From Verrucomicrobiia bacterium (lineage in GTDB: Bacteria; Verrucomicrobiota; Verrucomicrobiia; Verrucomicrobiales; DEV007), in contig JAGROY010000197.1 of assembly GCA_020439995.1 (NCBI GenBank), forward strand, positions 1-64,000: a stretch of DNA of 64,000 bases. Reading direction: 5' to 3'. Both the position numbers and the translations under genes were made by a program. The notes below the pieces were generated by a model. That model saw nothing but the letters and a program-made list of their open reading frames with translations. It was not told the origin of the DNA and did not search any database. Shown here piece after piece: positions 2,611-10,942 of the stretch (the first letter of the stretch is position 1; every line of letters begins with the position of its first letter).

Positions 2611-5292
2611 TTACACCAGATTGGCATCAACTCCGTCAATGACTCTACGGATCTCCCTCGCGAGGACATCGACCTGATATGGCTTCTGAACCACGCCTTC
2701 CGGCACGGAACCAGCTTCTTCAGCGAAGCTATCGACCTCCACCAGATAGCCACTGCAGATGACAACCGGAATGTGAGGGAATCTACCCGAACGGAGCTCT
2801 TTGAAAGTCTCGCGTCCAGACATGCGGGGCATCGTCAAGTCCAGCATGATCAGGCTGATGGATTTGCCACAGCGAGCGACGACTTCCAGTGCCTCCTTGC
2901 CATCCTGGGCAGTCTCCACCTTGTAGCCCTGGCGCTTCAGAACATTCTCAGCCACCGTGCGGACGATCTGTTCATCGTCGACGATCAGAATGGTTTCGGT
3001 GCCTCCGACCACTGGAGCTGATGCTGTGGCCGCGACTTCCGCAGGCTTATCACAGGCAGGAATGTACACGGAGAAAGTAGTGCCAACTCCAAGTTCCGAA
3101 TCACACTCGATCCAGCCATGGTGCTCCTGAACGATGCCGTAGGATGTGGCCAGACCAAGGCCGGTTCCTTTGCCCTGCTCCTTGGTCGTGAAAAATGGCT
3201 CAAAGATTTTCTCGCGGATGGATTCATCCATTCCCGTCCCATCGTCCTGCACGGAAATCTTCACGTAGTCACCGGGCTTGCAGTCCGTCTGCCGCGGCAG
3301 GGCGTCAAGGTTCACATACGCTTTTGCAGTAGTGACAGTGATCGACCCGCCGCCGACCAAAGCGTCCCGAGCATTCACACAAAAATTCATCAGTACCTGG
3401 TCGATCTGATTTCCATCGGCAAAAATAAACGGTTCAGCGTCGTCGAGGTTCACACGAAGGCGAATCGAGGGATCGAGACCAGGCGTCAGAATTTCCTGAA
3501 CGTCCTTCACCAGCCGATTGGCCGACCACGGCTGAAGCGAAACCTTGTTCTGCCGAGAGAATGTGAGCAGTTGCTTCACGATTCCCGCCGCACGCTCGGC
3601 GGCGCGCTTTGCAGAAAGCACCAGATCCTCATTCTCTTTTGGCATATCGCCCAGCAACTCACTCAGTGAGAGGTTGCCGATAATACCTGTAAGCAAGTTG
3701 TTAAAATCGTGGGCCACACCGCCGGACAGACGGCCAATTGCCTCCATCTTCGTCGACTGCTGAAGCCCCTGCTCCAGTCGGCGCTGCTCAGTCATATCCC
3801 GGAACATCCAGAGTCGGGCAAAAGTGTTGCCAGTGGAGTTCATCACCGGGGCACTGTAGATCGCCAACCGCATCTCCGCCTCGCCATTCACCACCCATTC
3901 GCCCTTGTGCACCAGGCCGGAGCTTGCGGTATGCTGCTTCCAAACCTCCTCAAACTTCTCCTCGTCTTCAAAGCATCTCAGAAGAGCAGACTTTGACGGC
4001 GTTCCGTCTGCGAGCCCCTCCTCAAGAAGCCTCGCTCCATTCACACCAAAGAAATCCCGCACGCGCTTGTTCGCGGCAAGGACTTCTCCAGTAGGTCGCA
4101 CCACGATGATCGCCTCTGGAGTAGACTCATAGGTCGCCCGCAATTGAGCGGTGAGATCCTCGAGATCAGCCTGGGATTCTCTGAGACGCTGCGTCCTCGA
4201 CTGTACGAGCGACTCCAAGTGGGTACGGTGACCTTTCAGCTCGTGAACCATCTGGTTGAAGGAAGTTGCCAGTGCCCGCATTTCACTCGGCCCGTCGTCA
4301 TCCATTCTGGCGTCAAGACTTCCTGAAGCAACAGACTTTGCGATCTCGGCAGCGCGGATCACCGGCTGTGCAAGTTTAGATGCGAGAAACCATCCGAACA
4401 AAGCCATAAGAATGGAAATAGCCCCGCCGCCCGCTAGCTGAGTAATCTGGAACTGGCGAATCATACCCGAGATGGTTTCTTCATTCTGACGGCACAAGAG
4501 TAGCAACGGATACGGCAATCCGGTGGCGGATGGATTCAGAACCTTCGTGTAGTGCAAAAAGACATTACCCTGCTGATCAGTGTGAGAACCAATAGAGGTG
4601 GACATCCAATTCTCCGTTGTTGATTTTGCAACCACGAAATCCTGGCTAATCATTTCCTCGTTAGGATGAGACAATATTTTTCTATTCTCGTCCATTAAGA
4701 TGAATGCTCCAGGCTGACCTCCGATCTTTGCTGAATTAAGAATCTCCCAAATATCGTCAAGTCCTATCTCCGCCCGCACGACACTGGCTGGAAGTTCTCC
4801 AGGCCTGCCAATCGGGATGTAGGTTGTGATCAGCAACTTGTAACCCTTCTCTTTACCTAAGCCGTCGGGATGGGGCCTTGAGATAAAACGATTCCCCTTC
4901 ACCGCATTCGCAAAATAGCGCGTCTCGTCACGGCGTCTATCGGTTTCCCGGGTCGATATCTCCCAGCCGTCGAGATCGAACAGCCGGATGTCACGAAAGT
5001 GTGAATAGCTCTCCGTCAACCTGTCAAACTCCATCCGCTTGTCCTCTTTGGATGATTCTGCCGACAGTAAAGTACGGCTCTGGGCTAGTGAATCAAGATC
5101 CCTAATGGCCTTATCAATTACATAAGCAACCTCCCGAGCCACTTCGTCTCCCAGATCAACCACACGACCATTCTCGGACTCCCTAAGCGCTTGACTCGTA
5201 ACCGTATGAGTCACCAAAAGAATCACGGCTAGCGGCGCGATTCCTGCGAGCAGGAGGGCAGTGAAAGCCCTCTGTCTGATCGATGGGATCAT
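2611..5292 (-). CDS. Hybrid sensor histidine kinase (Cache-HAMP-PAS-HisKA-HATPase-REC)
   Basis: 893 residues. TM helices lie at about 11-30 and 284-306 and enclose an extracytoplasmic region of roughly 250 residues that looks like a double Cache sensor ([33 protein letters not shown]). A HAMP stretch (about 307-360), coiled linker, PAS domain (about 385-500), HisKA with [11 protein letters not shown] (phospho-acceptor H528), HATPase (N box about 637-646, GTGLGLA near 709) and a C-terminal receiver with D818 in MLDLTMP follow. The start lies 36 bp after the stop of the PotD-like gene upstream, so the two probably form one transcript with the binding protein first. I infer that the periplasmic protein feeds the Cache domain. 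No separate output regulator gene adjoins; the fused receiver suggests a phosphorelay to one encoded elsewhere. Confidence 0.92.
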
Positions 5293-5328
5293 TAGGGATG
5301 GGTGAACAAAGTCCCGTTGGTTTAGATC

Positions 5329-6432
5329 CTAGTTAGCGGAAATCGATTCTTCCACATTCTTGCTCTTGTGAAGAGACTTCCATCCTCTATTCATAACAGC
5401 GTCTAACTTAGGACTAACCGCAAGCGATCCGCAGCGTTCTAGCACTTCTGAATCAGGATAGAGAGCTTTATTGTTGCGCATGTCTGGATTTATTTTGTCG
5501 AGGATCGGCCACGCCTCCTTATTTGGCGTTGCAAATCCAACAAAGTCTGAACTTGCCGCGGCAATCTCGGGGCGCTGCATGAAATTAATGAATGCTTTCG
5601 CATCTTCTAGACTATTTGTGTCCCTCGAAACCACAAAACTGTCCATCCAGACACTTGCTCCTTCGTCCGGGATGAAGAAATCGACATTCTCGTTTTCTGC
5701 CGCAGCTCGGGACGCGTCTCCACTATACATCATTGCCACAGCAATTTCGTCTCCCTTGGGTAGATTTTCGATTGTGTCGACATCGCTCATGAACTTGACC
5801 CGGCCGTTCTCGACAATTTCCGACAACTGCAACTGCGCTGTCTCAAGGTCTTCGGGTGTTGCTTGATCGATGCTCTTGCCCGCCAATAAAAGTCCAATCA
5901 TGAAACATTCCTGTTTCTCATCAAGAAGGGCCACTTTGCCTGCTACCTCGGGATCCTTCAGGAGCGACCAAGATCGCGAAGATGGTTGAATTAAATCTTT
6001 ACGATAGGCGAGCAACGTCGTTCCCCACATGTAGGGAACCGAGTACGCCTTCACCTGGTCGTAGGGGGGCTTCCGAAACTCCCGACTGATGTTAACGAGA
6101 TTTGGAACATCAATTTCATGAAGGACTCGGGCGTCACTCAGTAGATCAATAGTACGACCATCGGCCACGATGACATCGTACGCACTTGCGTTAACCCTTA
6201 CCTCTTCCGCCATCTCTTCAGTATCCTCGTAGAATTCGAGCTTTACCCTAATTCCCGTTTCTTTCTCGAAGGTTTCAAGAAGCTCAGGACTAAAGTATTC
6301 ATCCCAAGTGAACAATACAATCTCTCGCCCTTTCCCCGCGCTTGGCTCCATGCCGACTTCCTTTTGCTCATTCCCACATCCTGCCAGCGAAATCACCACG
6401 AGGAGTGCCACTATACAACTAATTCTGTTCAT
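5329..6432 (-). CDS. PotD/NspS-like polyamine-binding lipoprotein
   Basis: 367 residues with a lipobox at LVVISLAGC, so it is probably a lipid-anchored periplasmic solute-binding protein. Family signatures of spermidine/putrescine-binding proteins are present: LFTWDEYFSPE at the N-terminus, VPYMWGTT, AVAMMYSGDA, and DEGASVWMDSFVVS, the region that in PotD carries the acidic and aromatic ligands for amino groups. No PotABC permease or ATPase gene lies nearby. The next gene in the same direction is a hybrid histidine kinase. That arrangement resembles NspS, the norspermidine-responsive binding protein of Vibrio cholerae that signals through a membrane partner instead of feeding a transporter. 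Ligand identity is not visible from sequence. A TATAAT-like box ends only about 8 bases before the ATG and there is no Shine-Dalgarno, so the mRNA may be leaderless. Confidence 0.88.
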   Translation of the reverse strand: MNRISCIVALLVVISLAGCGNEQKEVGMEPSAGKGREIVLFTWDEYFSPELLETFEKETGIRVKLEFYEDTEEMAEEVRVNASAYDVIVADGRTIDLLSDARVLHEIDVPNLVNISREFRKPPYDQVKAYSVPYMWGTTLLAYRKDLIQPSSRSWSLLKDPEVAGKVALLDEKQECFMIGLLLAGKSIDQATPEDLETAQLQLSEIVENGRVKFMSDVDTIENLPKGDEIAVAMMYSGDASRAAAENENVDFFIPDEGASVWMDSFVVSRDTNSLEDAKAFINFMQRPEIAAASSDFVGFATPNKEAWPILDKINPDMRNNKALYPDSEVLERCGSLAVSPKLDAVMNRGWKSLHKSKNVEESISAN

Positions 6433-6642
6433 AATTAGTAATTATACCATAACTTTCAGAAAGAGCATACATTTTTATCCTATTTTCTAAAAAATCGTTG
6501 CGTTTGCTGCTTAATATTTTATAATATGTAAAATTCTTATTATTGAGAACTAAATTTGAGTTTTTTCCCACCAGATTCTGCAATAAATCGTAAGTTAATT
6601 GGTCCTTTCTGTTGCAATCTTCCACGCGAGCGGGAGCAAAAC
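6433..6642. promoter_or_regulatory. AT-rich divergent promoter region between PotD-like gene and MATE operon
   Basis: This 210-bp gap separates divergent starts and is strikingly AT-rich compared with its flanks. On the plus strand TTGCGT (6498-6503), a 16-bp spacer and TATAAT (6520-6525) make a good sigma-70-type promoter for the MATE set, leaving a leader of about 110 nt. On the minus strand TATAAT (complement of 6441-6446) lies directly upstream of the PotD-like ATG. No clear operator palindrome was found. Confidence 0.45.
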
Positions 6643-7983
6643 GTGACGGGCAGGAGCAAGCGACGGAAAGACTTGTTGCTGGCCGGGTGGCCACTGATCG
6701 CGGCTAATGTTGCGACGGTCGGGCTCCAGCTCGGCGACGCTTGGATCACGTCGCGACTGGGAACAGTTGCGCTGGCTTCGCTCGCTGTCCCGGGATTATT
6801 CCTGTTCACGATGATGAGCTTTGGCCAAGGGTATTCGCTCCCCCTTATATCACGATTCGCCACCCAATCGCAGCGTCCTCCTGTGCGTCACGCTGCGGCT
6901 CAAGCGGGAATTCTTGCGGCTTTGGGAATCGTGATTGCTTTGCTTGGAACTTTCATGGCAAACCCGGCCTTAGGCGCATTCCAGCATCCTATACAGCTAT
7001 TAGAGATGGAGGTCGTTTATCTAAAACTTGGATTGTTTGCTACGGCAATGAAGTTTGGTTCCTTCGTCATCGCTGCCTTCTTCATAGCGATTCAGCGCAC
7101 CACGCTGGTCCTTGCAGTTGGATTATCTACAGTTACACTAAACTTAGGGCTCAGCTTTGGACTTACCACCGACGCCTTTGGATTACCGAATGTCGGATTT
7201 GTGGGCGTAGCGATTGGCACCTTGGTTGCCTGCTTTTCCGAGCTCCTCATCTTCTCCTTATGCCTCTGGAATTTGAGCCGTAATGGGAGCTGCTTGGTCT
7301 GCCTCTCTATTCCGATCGATAGAAGAGGGAAAAGGATTGCTGTCTTCGATCAGCTTCGAGTAGGGTTCCCTGCAGGATTACACGGCGCAGTCGACGTAAT
7401 TGCCTGGGGCGCAATTCTTCTATGGTTTGTAGGACAATTTGGTTCTGATCACTTGGCTGCCGCGACCGTGCTAATCCGCCTAATGCAAGTGTCCTTTCTT
7501 CCGGCGGAGGGAATTGCGATCGCTCTTGTAGGTTTCCTCGGGAAGAGCAACAGAAGCAGCAACGCCAGACGTTATACCAATTCGGCTTTTAACTTGATTG
7601 GCTCGTATATGGCTCTCTGTGCCTGCGCCTTTCTTGCATTTCGGACACCACTGTCGAGTTATCTAACAGAATCCGCCAGTGTCGCGAGAATTGTTGCAGA
7701 CTGCATACTTTTCGTCTGCGTGTTCCAGATATTTGACGCAATGAATATAACTTTTTCTAGCGCACTCTTAGGCACCGGCGACACAGCCTGGCCAGCCGCC
7801 ATCAATTTCCTACTTCTCGTCACCATACTTTTAGGGGGCGGGTATACCGTTATTCGCTTCTTCCCTCAATTGAAGTCTACTGGAATTTGGATTGTCGTTA
7901 TGATTTACGTCGCCAGCCAAGGTTTACTTTTCTATTACCGCTGGAATCGCAACATAACAACACAAAACAAGATCGCCTCATAA
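6643..7983 (+). CDS. MATE-family multidrug/metabolite exporter
   Basis: 446 residues from the GTG at 6643, which has GGGAG seven bases upstream; an in-frame TTG at 6556 would add 29 residues that do not look like a MATE N-terminus. The protein begins with a basic segment followed by LLLAGWPLIAANVATVGLQ and has about twelve hydrophobic segments in two halves, as in DinF/NorM-type Na+/H+-coupled exporters. MATE helix-1 and helix-7 patterns are recognisable (GDAWITSRLGTVALASLAVPG; second-half FPAGLHGAVDVIAWG). The SET-domain gene starts 11 bp after its stop and further co-directional genes follow, so this is probably the first gene of an operon. The substrate is unknown. Context with a carboxynorspermidine synthase invites a polyamine-like or methylated product as cargo, but that is inference. 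Base composition is lower in G+C than the genes to the right. Confidence 0.85.
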   Translation: MTGRSKRRKDLLLAGWPLIAANVATVGLQLGDAWITSRLGTVALASLAVPGLFLFTMMSFGQGYSLPLISRFATQSQRPPVRHAAAQAGILAALGIVIALLGTFMANPALGAFQHPIQLLEMEVVYLKLGLFATAMKFGSFVIAAFFIAIQRTTLVLAVGLSTVTLNLGLSFGLTTDAFGLPNVGFVGVAIGTLVACFSELLIFSLCLWNLSRNGSCLVCLSIPIDRRGKRIAVFDQLRVGFPAGLHGAVDVIAWGAILLWFVGQFGSDHLAAATVLIRLMQVSFLPAEGIAIALVGFLGKSNRSSNARRYTNSAFNLIGSYMALCACAFLAFRTPLSSYLTESASVARIVADCILFVCVFQIFDAMNITFSSALLGTGDTAWPAAINFLLLVTILLGGGYTVIRFFPQLKSTGIWIVVMIYVASQGLLFYYRWNRNITTQNKIAS

Positions 7984-7994
7984 AATATGCAACA

Positions 7995-8531
7995 ATGGAA
8001 AACAGGAAACTAACGACAAGGGATCTGGGTACCATGGGACGTGGAGTTTATGCAACAGCCAAAATCTTCCCAGGTGAGTTTATCGCCAGATTCGATGGAA
8101 AGATTTATTACTGGGACTGGCCAAACATACGGTTGCCGAATGATGCTCCGGAATATGTTTTCGAACACGCCATACCGTTTGCCGACAATTATGTTAGAGA
8201 CTCCACGGGACTAGCGAGGCTTGTCAACCACTCTTGCAAACCAAACTGTAGAATCCAAGACCTCTTCTCTATTGTCGCAATGCATCCAATTGAGGCGGGC
8301 CAACAGCTAACTTGGGACTACGACACGGCTCAAGACGATAGCTCGTGGTTCATGCACTGCAATTGCGGCGCTCGTGAATGCCGACAGATTATCCGCGGGT
8401 ACAGCCACTTAACCACTGAGCAGAAGCACCGATGTTCTAGCTACACATCTGAATGGATTCTCGCGAAATCCGTAATAGTACCCCGCCCAAGTACTGCGAT
8501 TGCCCCCTCAACGATAGGGCTAACCACTTAA
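7995..8531 (+). CDS. SET-domain methyltransferase (lysine methyltransferase-like)
   Basis: 178 residues from the ATG at 7995, 11 bp after the MATE stop; the open frame continues upstream into the MATE gene, but SET proteins begin near here. The SET fold is clear: GRGVYATAKIFPGEFIARFDG at residues about 14-34, the pseudoknot motif RLVNHSCKPNC (N78-H79-S80-C81), LTWDYDTAQD, and a post-SET CNCGARECR with C122, C124 and C129 that should complete a zinc site with C81. SET proteins transfer methyl groups from SAM to lysine side chains; bacterial members are uncommon and known targets include histone-like proteins. There is no additional domain, signal peptide or secretion tail. It sits between an exporter and a second methyltransferase gene. 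Target unknown. Confidence 0.87.
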   Translation: MENRKLTTRDLGTMGRGVYATAKIFPGEFIARFDGKIYYWDWPNIRLPNDAPEYVFEHAIPFADNYVRDSTGLARLVNHSCKPNCRIQDLFSIVAMHPIEAGQQLTWDYDTAQDDSSWFMHCNCGARECRQIIRGYSHLTTEQKHRCSSYTSEWILAKSVIVPRPSTAIAPSTIGLTT

Positions 8532-8561
8532 TAAAATCGCCGAGCTTTGTCGCAGGCAATA

Positions 8562-8595
8562 GATACGGCAACACATTCGATACGGCAACACATTC
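8562..8595 (+). repeat. Perfect 17-bp tandem duplication
   Basis: Two abutting copies of GATACGGCAACACATTC occupy 8562-8578 and 8579-8595, between the SET stop and the most likely PRMT-like start at 8600. Seventeen is not a multiple of three, so if the region is translated as part of the PRMT-like gene the duplication changes the N-terminal frame. Confidence 0.9.
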
Positions 8596-8599
8596 GTTG

Positions 8600-9721
8600 A
8601 TGCTCCCAACCAGCATGCCCACCGCAACCCCAAACAATTCAACCTCGATATCTGGATCTTTTGGCTCAGACTACCAATCGCTGCCGCACACTCCCGGACT
8701 GCCCCCCCTGTTTTGGCCTTGCGTTGGAGAGCATCCAGTCTACGACGGGAATCTTTATAACTTCCTTTCCGCCGATGAAATGCGCAACGACCTCTATCGA
8801 TCGGGAATTGGTGATACTGTTGCCGGAAAGATTGTTGTCGACATCGGCACCGGTGACCAAGCCCATTGGGCCATAGAATGCATCCGGGCAGGCGCAAAAA
8901 AAGCTTACGCCATTGAACAGAATCCAAAAGCGGCGGCGTTGGCCCAAGAGCTAGTCTCTAAACTTGGGCTGGCAGACAGAATCACAGTCTTAGTTGGCCG
9001 GTCCACCGAGATTAATCTGCCGGAACTTGCGGATGTTTGCATTTCTGAGATACTGGGCGAGATAGGTAGTGCCGAGGGTGCAATCACTACTCTAAATGAT
9101 GCCAAGAATCGGCTAATGAAGACTGGCGGAGAATTCTTACCAGAGCGCTGTAACACTTTCATCGCTCCGGTACAGCTACCGACCGAACTCATCACGTCAC
9201 CCACTTTTGATCCCGATGCCCTCCCGTACCTTAATCATATTTTCGCCGCCGCTCGGAGGCCGTTTGATGTCCGCGTCAGCATCTCGAATTTAGGAAACTC
9301 CTACAAATTGCCGTCGATTCCTACAACGTTCGAATCCCTGAACTTCAGTGGTCAAATCGAGCAGAACTCCATCCACGGTCACACGTTCGTTATTAGCGAC
9401 ACTGCTGAACTACACGGATTCCTACTCTGGCTGTCCATAGAGTGCAGAATCGGTGCAGGGCAACTCGATACCCTGCTGCACAAAACTAACTGGTTTCCCG
9501 TCTTCTTTCCAGTTTGGCCGAATAGCCTACCAGTGACCGAAGGTGATAGCATCGAATGTGCTTTCTCACGGCACCTCTCAGACGATGGAATGCATCCCAA
9601 CTACGCGATTGAAGGTATCGTGCGGAGCCGAGCGGGAAACGAACAAAATTTCATGTGGAAGTCCGATCATCACAGCTCCACGTTTCTGGCAAGCGATTTC
9701 TACAAGGAACTTTTTGCTTGA
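8600..9721 (+). CDS. PRMT-like class I SAM-dependent methyltransferase
   Basis: 373 residues from the ATG at 8600; the same frame is open back to an ATG at 8453, which would overlap the SET gene by 79 bp and add a low-complexity N-terminus. The core resembles protein arginine N-methyltransferases: YNFLSADEMRNDL ahead of motif I VVDIGTGD (about 8831), acidic post-I YAIEQNP, and SEILGEIGSAEGA (9044 on), where two glutamates nine residues apart match the PRMT double-E loop. A GGEFLPERCNTFIAP stretch follows, then a beta-barrel-like half. Where PRMTs carry THW, this protein has KTNW (about 9482-9493). Family chemistry is methyl transfer to arginine guanidinium; the altered THW loop makes substrate and product type uncertain. 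It lies 33 bp before the carboxynorspermidine synthase gene. Confidence 0.75.
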   Translation: MLPTSMPTATPNNSTSISGSFGSDYQSLPHTPGLPPLFWPCVGEHPVYDGNLYNFLSADEMRNDLYRSGIGDTVAGKIVVDIGTGDQAHWAIECIRAGAKKAYAIEQNPKAAALAQELVSKLGLADRITVLVGRSTEINLPELADVCISEILGEIGSAEGAITTLNDAKNRLMKTGGEFLPERCNTFIAPVQLPTELITSPTFDPDALPYLNHIFAAARRPFDVRVSISNLGNSYKLPSIPTTFESLNFSGQIEQNSIHGHTFVISDTAELHGFLLWLSIECRIGAGQLDTLLHKTNWFPVFFPVWPNSLPVTEGDSIECAFSRHLSDDGMHPNYAIEGIVRSRAGNEQNFMWKSDHHSSTFLASDFYKELFA

Positions 9722-9754
9722 GACCGAGGTTGAAGCAGGGAAACTCACCGCTAA

Positions 9755-10942
9755 ATGCCCAAACTACTAATCATCGGAGCCGGCGGCGTTAGCCGGGTTG
9801 TTGTACACAAATGTGCTGGCCTGCCGGATGTTTTTCCGGAGATCATGCTGGCGAGTCGGACGAAGTCGAAGTGCGATGCGATCGCAGCGGAGTTAAACCG
9901 CCCAATTCAGACGGCAAAGATTGATGCGGATGATCCTGCTCAGGTTGCAGCTTTAATCAGGGAGTTTGGCGCGGATCTGGTGGTCAATGTTGCCCTTCCT
10001 TACCAGGATTTGAGCATCATGGATGGATGCCTGGAAGCCGGAGCTCATTACGTCGACACAGCGAACTACGAGCCTCCAAATGAAGCGAAGTTTTCGTATG
10101 GCTGGCAGTGGGCGTACCAGGACAAGTTCAAGGAGGCTGGGCTTTTGGCTCTGTTGGGCTCTGGGTTTGATCCCGGGGTGACGGGTGTCTATTGCGCTTA
10201 TGCGCAGAAGCATCACTTCGACGAGATTCATGAGATTGAGATCATCGACTGCAATGCCGGCGATCATGGGCATCCTTTTGCCACGAACTTCAATCCGGAG
10301 ATCAATATTCGGGAAGTAACGGCGAATGGCCGCTACTGGGAGAATGGCGAGTGGGTGGAGACGAAGCCGATGGAGTTCAGCCAGACGTTCGAGTTCTCGG
10401 AAGGCATCGGCCCGAAGAAGGCGTTTCTCATTTACCACGAGGAGCTGGAATCGCTGGTGAAGAACATCAAGGGACTGAAGCGGATCCGGTTCTGGATGAC
10501 GTTTTCAGACAATTACATCAAGCATCTTGAGGTGCTGCAGAACGTAGGAATGACTTCGATCGAGCCGATCAACTACAACGGCCAGGAGATCATCCCATTG
10601 CAATTCCTGAAGGCGCTGCTGCCTGATCCGGCATCACTGGGGCCACGCACGGTGGGCAAGACGTGGATCGGCTGCGTGATCGACGGGATTAAGGACGGCA
10701 AGCGACGCCGCTACACGGTCTACAACACCTGCGACCATCAGGAATGCTTCAAGGAAACAGGCGCTCAAGCGGTGTCCTACACCACTGGGGTTCCGGCGAT
10801 GATCGGTGCAAAGATGATCGCTGAAGGCAAGTGGACAGGGGCAGGTGTCTTCAACATTGAAGAGTTCGATCCCGATCCCTTCATGGCCGACCTCAATGCA
10901 TACGGCCTGCCGTGGCACGAAAGCATCGAGGAACTGGAGTAG
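9755..10942 (+). CDS. Carboxynorspermidine synthase (saccharopine dehydrogenase family)
   Basis: 395 residues, close to the family's usual length. The N-terminus is a Rossmann nucleotide-binding segment (KLLIIGAGGVSRVVVHK). Family signatures are strong: ANYEPPNEAKF, GSGFDPGVTGVYCAYA, HGHPFATNFNPEINIRE, and TTGVPAMIGAKM near the end. Enzymes of this group condense L-aspartate beta-semialdehyde with a diamine (diaminopropane or putrescine) using NADPH to give carboxynorspermidine or carboxyspermidine. The usual partner decarboxylase (NspC/CANSDC) is not in this window. The gene lies 33 bp after the PRMT-like gene, and the divergent PotD-like/kinase pair a few kilobases away suggests polyamine sensing and synthesis side by side. 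It is richer in G+C than the MATE-SET-PRMT genes, so it may be an older resident of the locus. Confidence 0.9.
   Translation: MPKLLIIGAGGVSRVVVHKCAGLPDVFPEIMLASRTKSKCDAIAAELNRPIQTAKIDADDPAQVAALIREFGADLVVNVALPYQDLSIMDGCLEAGAHYVDTANYEPPNEAKFSYGWQWAYQDKFKEAGLLALLGSGFDPGVTGVYCAYAQKHHFDEIHEIEIIDCNAGDHGHPFATNFNPEINIREVTANGRYWENGEWVETKPMEFSQTFEFSEGIGPKKAFLIYHEELESLVKNIKGLKRIRFWMTFSDNYIKHLEVLQNVGMTSIEPINYNGQEIIPLQFLKALLPDPASLGPRTVGKTWIGCVIDGIKDGKRRRYTVYNTCDHQECFKETGAQAVSYTTGVPAMIGAKMIAEGKWTGAGVFNIEEFDPDPFMADLNAYGLPWHESIEELE

Follow-up and report, generated by a model that had tools for sequence, protein, structure and literature searches.

Organization of the locus

We analysed a window of 64,000 nucleotides from a Verrucomicrobiia bacterium of the family DEV007 (GenBank assembly GCA_020439995.1, contig JAGROY010000197.1), in which a PotD/NspS-like solute-binding protein (SBP) and a hybrid histidine kinase are encoded one after the other on the minus strand, facing a divergent group of plus-strand genes that includes carboxyspermidine/carboxynorspermidine dehydrogenase (CANSDH) (Table 1). 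This pair is conserved in the family and probably senses a polyamine. The host genome is a Verrucomicrobia draft of 8.83 Mb in 490 contigs and is 91.7% complete.

The original prediction for this DNA, made from the sequence alone, had described a PotD-like lipoprotein without transporter genes shortly before a Cache-type hybrid kinase. All open reading frames (ORFs) that it named were located where it had placed them, 36 nt separate the two genes, and no PotABC genes were found in the first 14 kb of the window, which is the stretch scanned; ORFs, domains and scan agree with this part of the prediction. The divergent arrangement was also confirmed. The SET and class-I methyltransferase genes in the middle of the cluster are additions to the predicted operon, and CANSDH is only plausible as its end, a HIT gene lying 107 nt beyond it on the same strand. 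The likely starts are GTG for the MATE gene (6643) and ATG for the SET (7995) and class-I methyltransferase (8600) genes, and the gaps between the plus-strand genes are short.

Table 1. Features of the sensor locus and of the genes facing it (positions in the window; TM, transmembrane segment; REC, receiver domain)
Feature	Position	Strand	Basis
Hybrid histidine kinase, TM-dCache-TM-HAMP-PAS-HisKA (His528)-HATPase-REC	2611..5292	-	Pfam; predicted fold of residues 1-340; reading of the sequence
PotD/NspS-like solute-binding lipoprotein, lipobox Cys19; proposed polyamine receptor	5329..6432	-	Pfam; NCBIfam; PDB; structural model; pocket residues
Divergent intergenic region, 210 nt, between binding protein and MATE genes; likely regulatory	6433..6642	.	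Coordinates; start codons; MATE gene divergent in 18/18 loci
MATE-family exporter; proposed polyamine/cation efflux	6643..7983	+	MatE 86.3 bits (Pfam); TIGR00797 128.4 bits, under the cut-off of 147.4; neighbourhood counts
Small SET-domain methyltransferase with presumed NHSC and post-SET CxC motifs	7995..8531	+	SET 52.9 bits (Pfam); best PDB rows MLL/KMT2
PRMT-like class-I methyltransferase, loop SEILGEIGSAE	8600..9721	+	PRMT6 rows, E about 1e-17; homolog in L048
CANSDH	9755..10942	+	NF043000 374 bits, below the 800-bit cut-off; nearly full-length homology to PDB 8deb, carboxyspermidine dehydrogenase, E 1e-169; sole match in the genome

Conservation of the pair

A search of the 74 genomes of the family with the binding protein gave matches in 43 of them. 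Fifty-one SBP loci were not linked to PotABC; six of these, small contig fragments, were left out, and the neighbourhoods of the remaining 45 (hereafter kinase-side loci) and of 14 PotABC-linked loci were scored by one tblastn procedure. A kinase gene lay downstream on the same strand in 38 of the 45 kinase-side loci but in none of the 14 PotABC-linked ones (Fisher p = 9e-9; the loci are phylogenetically related, so that the counts are not independent and all such statistics given here are optimistic), with a median SBP-kinase gap of 29.5 nt (46 gaps). The other seven comprise one locus with a truncated kinase that was scored as having none (L039), two that stop at a contig edge (L046 and L058) and four in which none was found (L060, L065, L082 and L095). 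When the search was reversed, 41 of 48 matches to a profile of the sensor domain were beside a binding protein (compared by hand).

Across the phylum, the binding-protein profile had matches in 105 of 337 genomes. Twenty of these regions were opened: six contained a hybrid kinase (L210-L213, L221 and L222), seven contained Pot genes (L214-L219, and L225 with PotB only) and seven contained neither. The dCache domain of the six kinases was recognized by Pfam in four (L210, L213, L221 and L222) and by likeness to the window sensor in the other two; one of the six loci (L212, the same place as L153) is on a contig titled Lentisphaerae. As regards the pair, the neighbourhood check suggested with the original prediction came out in its favour, both in the family and in these six regions elsewhere in the phylum. 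An apparent fusion of both proteins in L213 (a 1292-aa ORF) was rejected, as the SBP there is a separate ORF of 368 aa in another frame and the long ORF has no Pfam SBP domain. Among the few cyanobacterial SBP matches opened, L174 had an adjoining kinase, which was of a REC-PAS type without Cache. In a plasmid search intended to provide an NspS-MbaA yardstick, 799 records matched, and the three that were opened among the best 60 of the 799 all had ABC genes (annotated for two; judged for L207 from ORF order and sequence starts only).

Alternatively, the binding protein might belong to a polyamine ABC transporter whose other genes lie elsewhere, with a kinase that works independently or through a different protein. 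The window protein does belong to the PotD family, and a functional link does not always exist between adjoining sbp and kinase genes, as reported in the accessible part of PMC11113362. Against this, the pairing of SBP and kinase is tight in both search directions. In a tree of 102 binding proteins, in which four loci were included twice, all 65 kinase-side rows and the unassigned L082 lay on one side of a 100/100 branch; the 21 PotABC-linked rows without exception, the rest of the unassigned rows and PotD of E. coli lay on the other. In addition, a genome-wide search of the 91.7% complete assembly with E. coli PotC, the only one of PotA, PotB and PotC searched at this scale, revealed no close PotC; the query matched a fused permease at C364 (E 3e-8 and 33% over 121 residues in the best piece) and, weakly, a place at C306. 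We consider such a distant transporter very improbable.

The binding protein and its predicted pocket

The binding protein (367 aa) matched SBP_bac_8 with 106.8 bits (Pfam), and its best NCBIfam model was PotD (165 bits, under the 582-bit cut-off). Its structural model (pLDDT 87.8) was most similar to PotD, VcPotD1 and PotF. Using E. coli PotD numbering, and residue roles of PotF/PotD taken from the accessible part of PMC8666671, we located the pocket residues W43, E45, Y46, D91, E175, Y236, D239, W262 and D264. The same positions were compared in 61 kinase-side rows. Tandem proteins contribute their second domains to this set, L077/L154 is one locus counted twice, and for some loci the kinase lies beyond the contig end; neither group contains L082 or L095. 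The aromatic box was nearly invariant (W34 in 55 of 61 rows, Tyr at W229 in 60 of 61, Trp at W255 in all 59 filled rows), and so were the amine-binding acids: D257 was present in all 59 filled rows, PotD S232 (D247 of PotF) was Asp in 59 of 61 and Glu in the other two, and the E171 position was Glu or Asp in 60 of 61. Two positions differed systematically from the 14 PotABC-linked rows, which all had Ala or Ser instead of Trp at W255, and all had Ser or Thr at S83, where Asp was found in 50 of the 61 kinase-side rows.

For NspS, the accessible part of PMC9993111 gives eight predicted contacts (W41, D70, D90, F131, Y233, D236, W261 and D263), five of which (W41, Y233, D236, W261 and D263) are also kept in ordinary PotD homologs. 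Through PotD numbering and this printed list, six of the eight (W41, D90, Y233, D236, W261 and D263) would correspond to W43, D91, Y236, D239, W262 and D264 of the window protein. NspS D90 should be the PotD S83 position, since the W41-D90 spacing equals that of W34 and S83. Of the six matching contacts only D90 is, by that paper, unusual among PotD homologs, and the Asp at the S83/D90 position would be the one specific likeness to NspS.

The pair could also be a real SBP-gated kinase that responds to a different small amine or to an amino acid, such as γ-aminobutyric acid (GABA), 5-aminovalerate, agmatine or an opine-like compound, the polyamine genes nearby being incidental. PF13416, the family of the binding protein, is broad. 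According to the accessible part of PMC11113362, three PF13416 proteins encoded near sensor kinases in Pseudomonas aeruginosa (AgtB and PA0602 with AgtS, and PA4985 with AruS) had been predicted to bind spermidine or putrescine but bind GABA or 5-aminovalerate, and no contact between them and the kinases was found there; a polyamine as ligand of our pair, which belongs to the same family, is therefore a prediction. Moreover, the distal pocket of the window protein is unlike that of PotD, with Arg93 at Y85 and Leu337 at Q327, and the Arg could hold a carboxylate. On the other hand, hardly any variation was seen in the aromatic box and the amine-binding acids, the top structural matches are PotD, PotF and VcPotD1, and a linkage to polyamine synthesis recurs in several genera (see below). 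We consider a ligand other than a polyamine unlikely.

The lipobox was tried as a mark of sensors and rejected: by the same strict pattern it was present in 13 of 14 transporter-linked proteins and in 20 of 27 on the kinase side. Tandem binding proteins were also observed, either as one ORF of about 720-740 aa before the kinase (L054, L062, L063, L066, L067, L072 and L073) or as two adjoining genes (L046, L071 and L074; the kinase side of L046 is off the contig). Their second domains form a branch of their own in the tree, which suggests a two-receptor input.

The hybrid kinase

The kinase (893 aa) matched dCache_1, HAMP, PAS, HisKA, HATPase_c and REC in Pfam. The dCache_1 score (36.5 bits) is under the Pfam cut-off of 45, and the call of this domain is decided by the predicted fold: residues 1-340 were modelled as a dCache fold (pLDDT 86), with TlpA, TlpC and PctA as best PDB rows among the matches listed (VIA-align, Z up to 18.7). 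This list was filled by dCache rows, so that families outside it, LuxQ included, are not thereby excluded. The H-box and the region of the REC Asp were identified by reading the sequence. No GGDEF or EAL match was found in the kinase with Pfam, and the HisKA-HATPase-REC order fits the original prediction of a phosphorelay kinase instead of a cyclic di-GMP (c-di-GMP) enzyme as partner. In an alignment judged by eye, the dCache domain had no conserved Arg at the position of R-x-W-Y, which we take to be the amino-acid motif of dCache domains; the absence of this Arg fits a kinase that senses through a partner protein. A protein of 615 aa with a C-terminal receiver domain, a possible relay partner, is encoded directly after the kinase in L045 (L045:8533-10380).

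LuxP is a ribose-type binding protein for autoinducer 2, and its partner LuxQ is a hybrid kinase whose periplasmic domain is of the Cache type. The window pair has a similar architecture, with periplasmic dCache, HAMP, HisKA, HATPase and REC all in one protein; unlike LuxP, its binding protein belongs to the PotD family (PF13416), and the LuxQ model NF041947 gave only 95.3 bits against a cut-off of 1200. CckA was also rejected as a family name, the CckA models being top-scoring but far under their cut-off. With NspS-MbaA of Vibrio cholerae and Sinorhizobium meliloti the pair shares a PotD-like protein without a transporter of its own, encoded next to a receptor that sits in the inner membrane and has a periplasmic part, whereas MbaA is a GGDEF/EAL enzyme of c-di-GMP and a hybrid histidine kinase with dCache takes its place in the window. 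With PotABCD/PotFGHI the binding protein has the fold and most of the polyamine pocket in common, but no ABC genes lie alongside it and, as described above, the W255 and S83 positions set it apart from the PotABC-linked verrucomicrobial proteins. About ten SBP-activated sensor kinases have been characterized, as counted in the accessible part of PMC9602780.

Linkage to polyamine-synthesis and MATE genes

CANSDH was near the pair in only three of the 45 loci (the window, L037 and L045). Twenty other CANSDH loci were opened: the gene adjoins carboxynorspermidine decarboxylase (CANSDC) in 18 of them, and tblastn detected neither a MATE gene nor a binding protein or sensor kinase of this type alongside any of the 20; CANSDH was therefore rejected as a conserved partner of the pair. 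In the host, CANSDC is located elsewhere and adjoins an arginine decarboxylase (ADC)-like gene (G000:C453:16610-19719; L034, L252), and in a second genome of the same genus CANSDH lies behind the kinase, on the opposite side. Because most other loci keep CANSDH beside CANSDC, the gene seems in this genus to have moved out of its normal operon and into the surroundings of the sensor pair. Such a placement supports a polyamine theme but does not single out carboxynorspermidine or norspermidine as the signal.

Polyamine-synthesis genes of any recognized kind were present within 8 kb in seven of 45 kinase-side loci and in none of 14 PotABC-linked loci (Fisher p = 0.18). ADC genes occurred within 8 kb in five loci (L044, L045, L047, L048 and L076), whereas 0.08 would be expected by density, and the three tested (L045, L047 and L048) were over the NCBIfam cut-offs. 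All but L045 also had a DHS-like (homospermidine-synthase-like) gene near the pair. L044 additionally has genes like agmatine deiminase and N-carbamoylputrescine amidase (by likeness to the L254 proteins, the best models being under cut-off), and if its DHS-like enzyme is SpeY, as in the accessible part of PMC9992855, a route from arginine to homospermidine would be encoded near the sensor. These loci are similar to the ADC-SpeY homospermidine clusters of that report (e.g., in Pelagibacter), from which they differ in being joined to a sensor kinase and to SET and/or MATE genes. Since ADC and a homospermidine-synthase-like gene take the place of CANSDH in other loci, we do not prefer norspermidine to spermidine or homospermidine as ligand; the original prediction is supported to the extent that the pocket retains the polyamine box and has one NspS-specific residue.

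A MATE gene was found within 6 kb in 18 of 45 kinase-side loci, always divergent, compared with none of 14 PotABC-linked loci (Fisher p = 0.003). L158, outside the family, also has SBP, MATE and ADC genes, its kinase side being cut by the contig end. The adjacency of synthesis, possible export and sensing that had been predicted was hence upheld for MATE but recurs for synthesis genes in only the seven loci mentioned above, and the conserved neighbour is not CANSDH. No description of bacterial polyamine export by MATE proteins was found among the matches listed in a literature search.

A proposed polyamine-gated phosphorelay

We propose that the pair is the input of a polyamine-gated phosphorelay that controls polyamine synthesis and export, with an NspS-like receptor and a kinase of LuxQ-like architecture, and we give this explanation a probability of roughly two in three. 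The steps from ligand capture onward are modelled on known SBP-kinase systems. The lipid-anchored receptor would capture a periplasmic polyamine, such as spermidine, homospermidine or a close analogue, and the loaded protein would dock on the dCache domain of the adjacent kinase and thereby set its kinase/phosphatase balance. REC would then pass the phosphate to a further phosphotransfer protein and a regulator. The output would be expression of polyamine genes, most likely of the divergent operon with MATE and, here, CANSDH, for which the divergent promoter region is the obvious target. In this way the pair would act as a homeostatic or cell-density sensor rather than as an uptake system. The ligand, the docking, the direction of control, the output genes and a polyamine as MATE substrate are suggested by analogy, whereas the gene pairing and its conservation, the loss of transporter context, the pocket residues, the folds and the linkage to polyamine synthesis were computed directly.

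A special form of this explanation is a quorum-type signal, in which the organism's own homospermidine or spermidine would be exported by MATE and read back through the pair. Synthesis, exporter and sensor are side by side in some loci, and V. cholerae has been proposed to sense self-secreted norspermidine through NspS-MbaA (accessible part of PMC8079147). But secretion and the MATE substrate are conjectural, and homeostasis or detoxification would account for the same genes; we regard a quorum signal as possible, with the chances rather against it.

Several observations weigh against a polyamine-gated phosphorelay, in addition to the relatedness of the loci, the altered distal pocket and the P. 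aeruginosa proteins discussed above. No kinase was seen in four family loci (L060, L065, L082 and L095) despite downstream sequence, of which L082 has only 1.2 kb, and L095 groups with the transporters in the tree and carries residues of their type. Seven of the 48 sensor-domain matches had no adjoining binding protein. In 38 of the 45 loci no polyamine-synthesis gene was recognized within 8 kb, and the difference in this respect from PotABC-linked loci does not on its own reach significance. Nor was a gene for a response regulator noticed next to the pair. Finally, the binding-protein gene of a second genome of the same genus (L037:8913-10046) has an in-frame TAG and is either a pseudogene or affected by an assembly error.

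The arrangement is well supported, and it would couple an NspS-like input to a kinase output within SBP-gated sensing of an otherwise known kind. The original prediction knew of no described system of this layout; we also found no description of the same arrangement among the papers listed in our literature searches, although SBP-activated kinases and polyamine signalling through the SBP of NspS-MbaA are both known already. Among those papers, the example of extracellular polyamine sensing for which the binding-protein receptor has been identified is the c-di-GMP pair NspS-MbaA, and a branch of binding proteins tied to hybrid kinases instead of transporters would show that polyamine signalling has also been wired into phosphorelays. 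For annotation, Asp at PotD S83, Trp at W255 and an adjoining kinase would together separate sensors from transporters in this phylum.

SET-domain and PRMT-like neighbours

SET genes were found within 6 kb in 25 of 45 kinase-side loci and in none of 14 PotABC-linked loci (Fisher p = 1e-4), and MATE or SET genes in 33 of 45 compared with none of 14 (Fisher p = 7e-7). By density alone (121 SET matches in the 74 genomes), a SET gene would be expected near the pair in 0.2 loci. Five of the 25 SET loci (L050, L052, L053, L061 and L069) are only near a second kind of SET gene that most genomes carry once; SET genes of the weaker-scoring kinds, to which that of the window belongs, were present in 20 of 45 loci. 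The NHSC and post-SET CxC sequences of the window protein are presumably the SET-domain motifs. The target of the SET protein may be either a protein or a small molecule; according to the accessible part of PMC12542666, free methionine is methylated by the SET enzyme BurB.

SET genes similar to that of the window (41-47% identity) were also observed together with polyamine-synthesis or MATE-family genes on stretches without the sensor pair, in the orders SET-MATE-ADC-DHS (L253:1-5102), ADC, MATE, amidase, deiminase, SET and DHS (L254:3823-10750), SET-DHS (L264:6599-8372) and MATE, amidase, deiminase and SET (L270:3493-7389). In L237:5925-9525, the SET gene found upstream of CANSDH-CANSDC is a more distant one. 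The MATE proteins of stretches without the sensor pair are 25-27% like the window MATE. In most of the 20 stretches opened around SET genes away from the pair, no polyamine or MATE-family genes were found.

We take SEILGEIGSAE in the class-I methyltransferase to be the double-E loop of PRMTs; to our knowledge, PRMT-like methyltransferases with such a loop are rare in bacteria. In L048 a homolog (L048:10175-11377) separates the binding-protein gene from that of the kinase.

A candidate ADC-free putrescine route

A DDAH/arginine-dihydrolase-like gene was found near MATE in nine of the 45 loci, in eight of them with a phosphatidylserine decarboxylase (PSD)-like gene alongside (L050:12024-13765, L040, L042, L052, L055, L059, L061 and L069; L058 has the first gene only, at a contig end). 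Both genes are present in exactly the same 13 of 74 genomes, and none of these is among the 32 genomes with ADC (hypergeometric probability 2e-4 by genome and 2e-3 by genus, kinship and genome incompleteness being uncorrected). Because the genomes with this gene pair have no detectable ADC, the pair suggests an alternative, ADC-free route to putrescine. Pyruvoyl decarboxylases derived from SpeD have been described (PMC10407285); the term 'phosphatidylserine decarboxylase' is absent from the main text of that article, to which our literature check on this point was confined.

Taken together, these observations would allow an integrated verrucomicrobial circuit, in which the NspS-like receptor and its phosphorelay set polyamine synthesis and MATE export, the SET and PRMT-like enzymes methylate a polyamine or a polyamine-controlled protein, and ADC-free lineages make putrescine by an arginine deiminase/dihydrolase-like enzyme and then a PSD-family pyruvoyl decarboxylase, both encoded beside exporter and sensor. 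As a whole this scheme is speculative and rather doubtful; the linked exporter, the SET and PRMT-like genes and the candidate route are each directly testable. In the alignment, the PSD-like protein keeps a Gly-Ser at what is presumably the pyruvoyl-forming site, and in L042 a desaturase-like gene lies between the DDAH-like and PSD-like genes.

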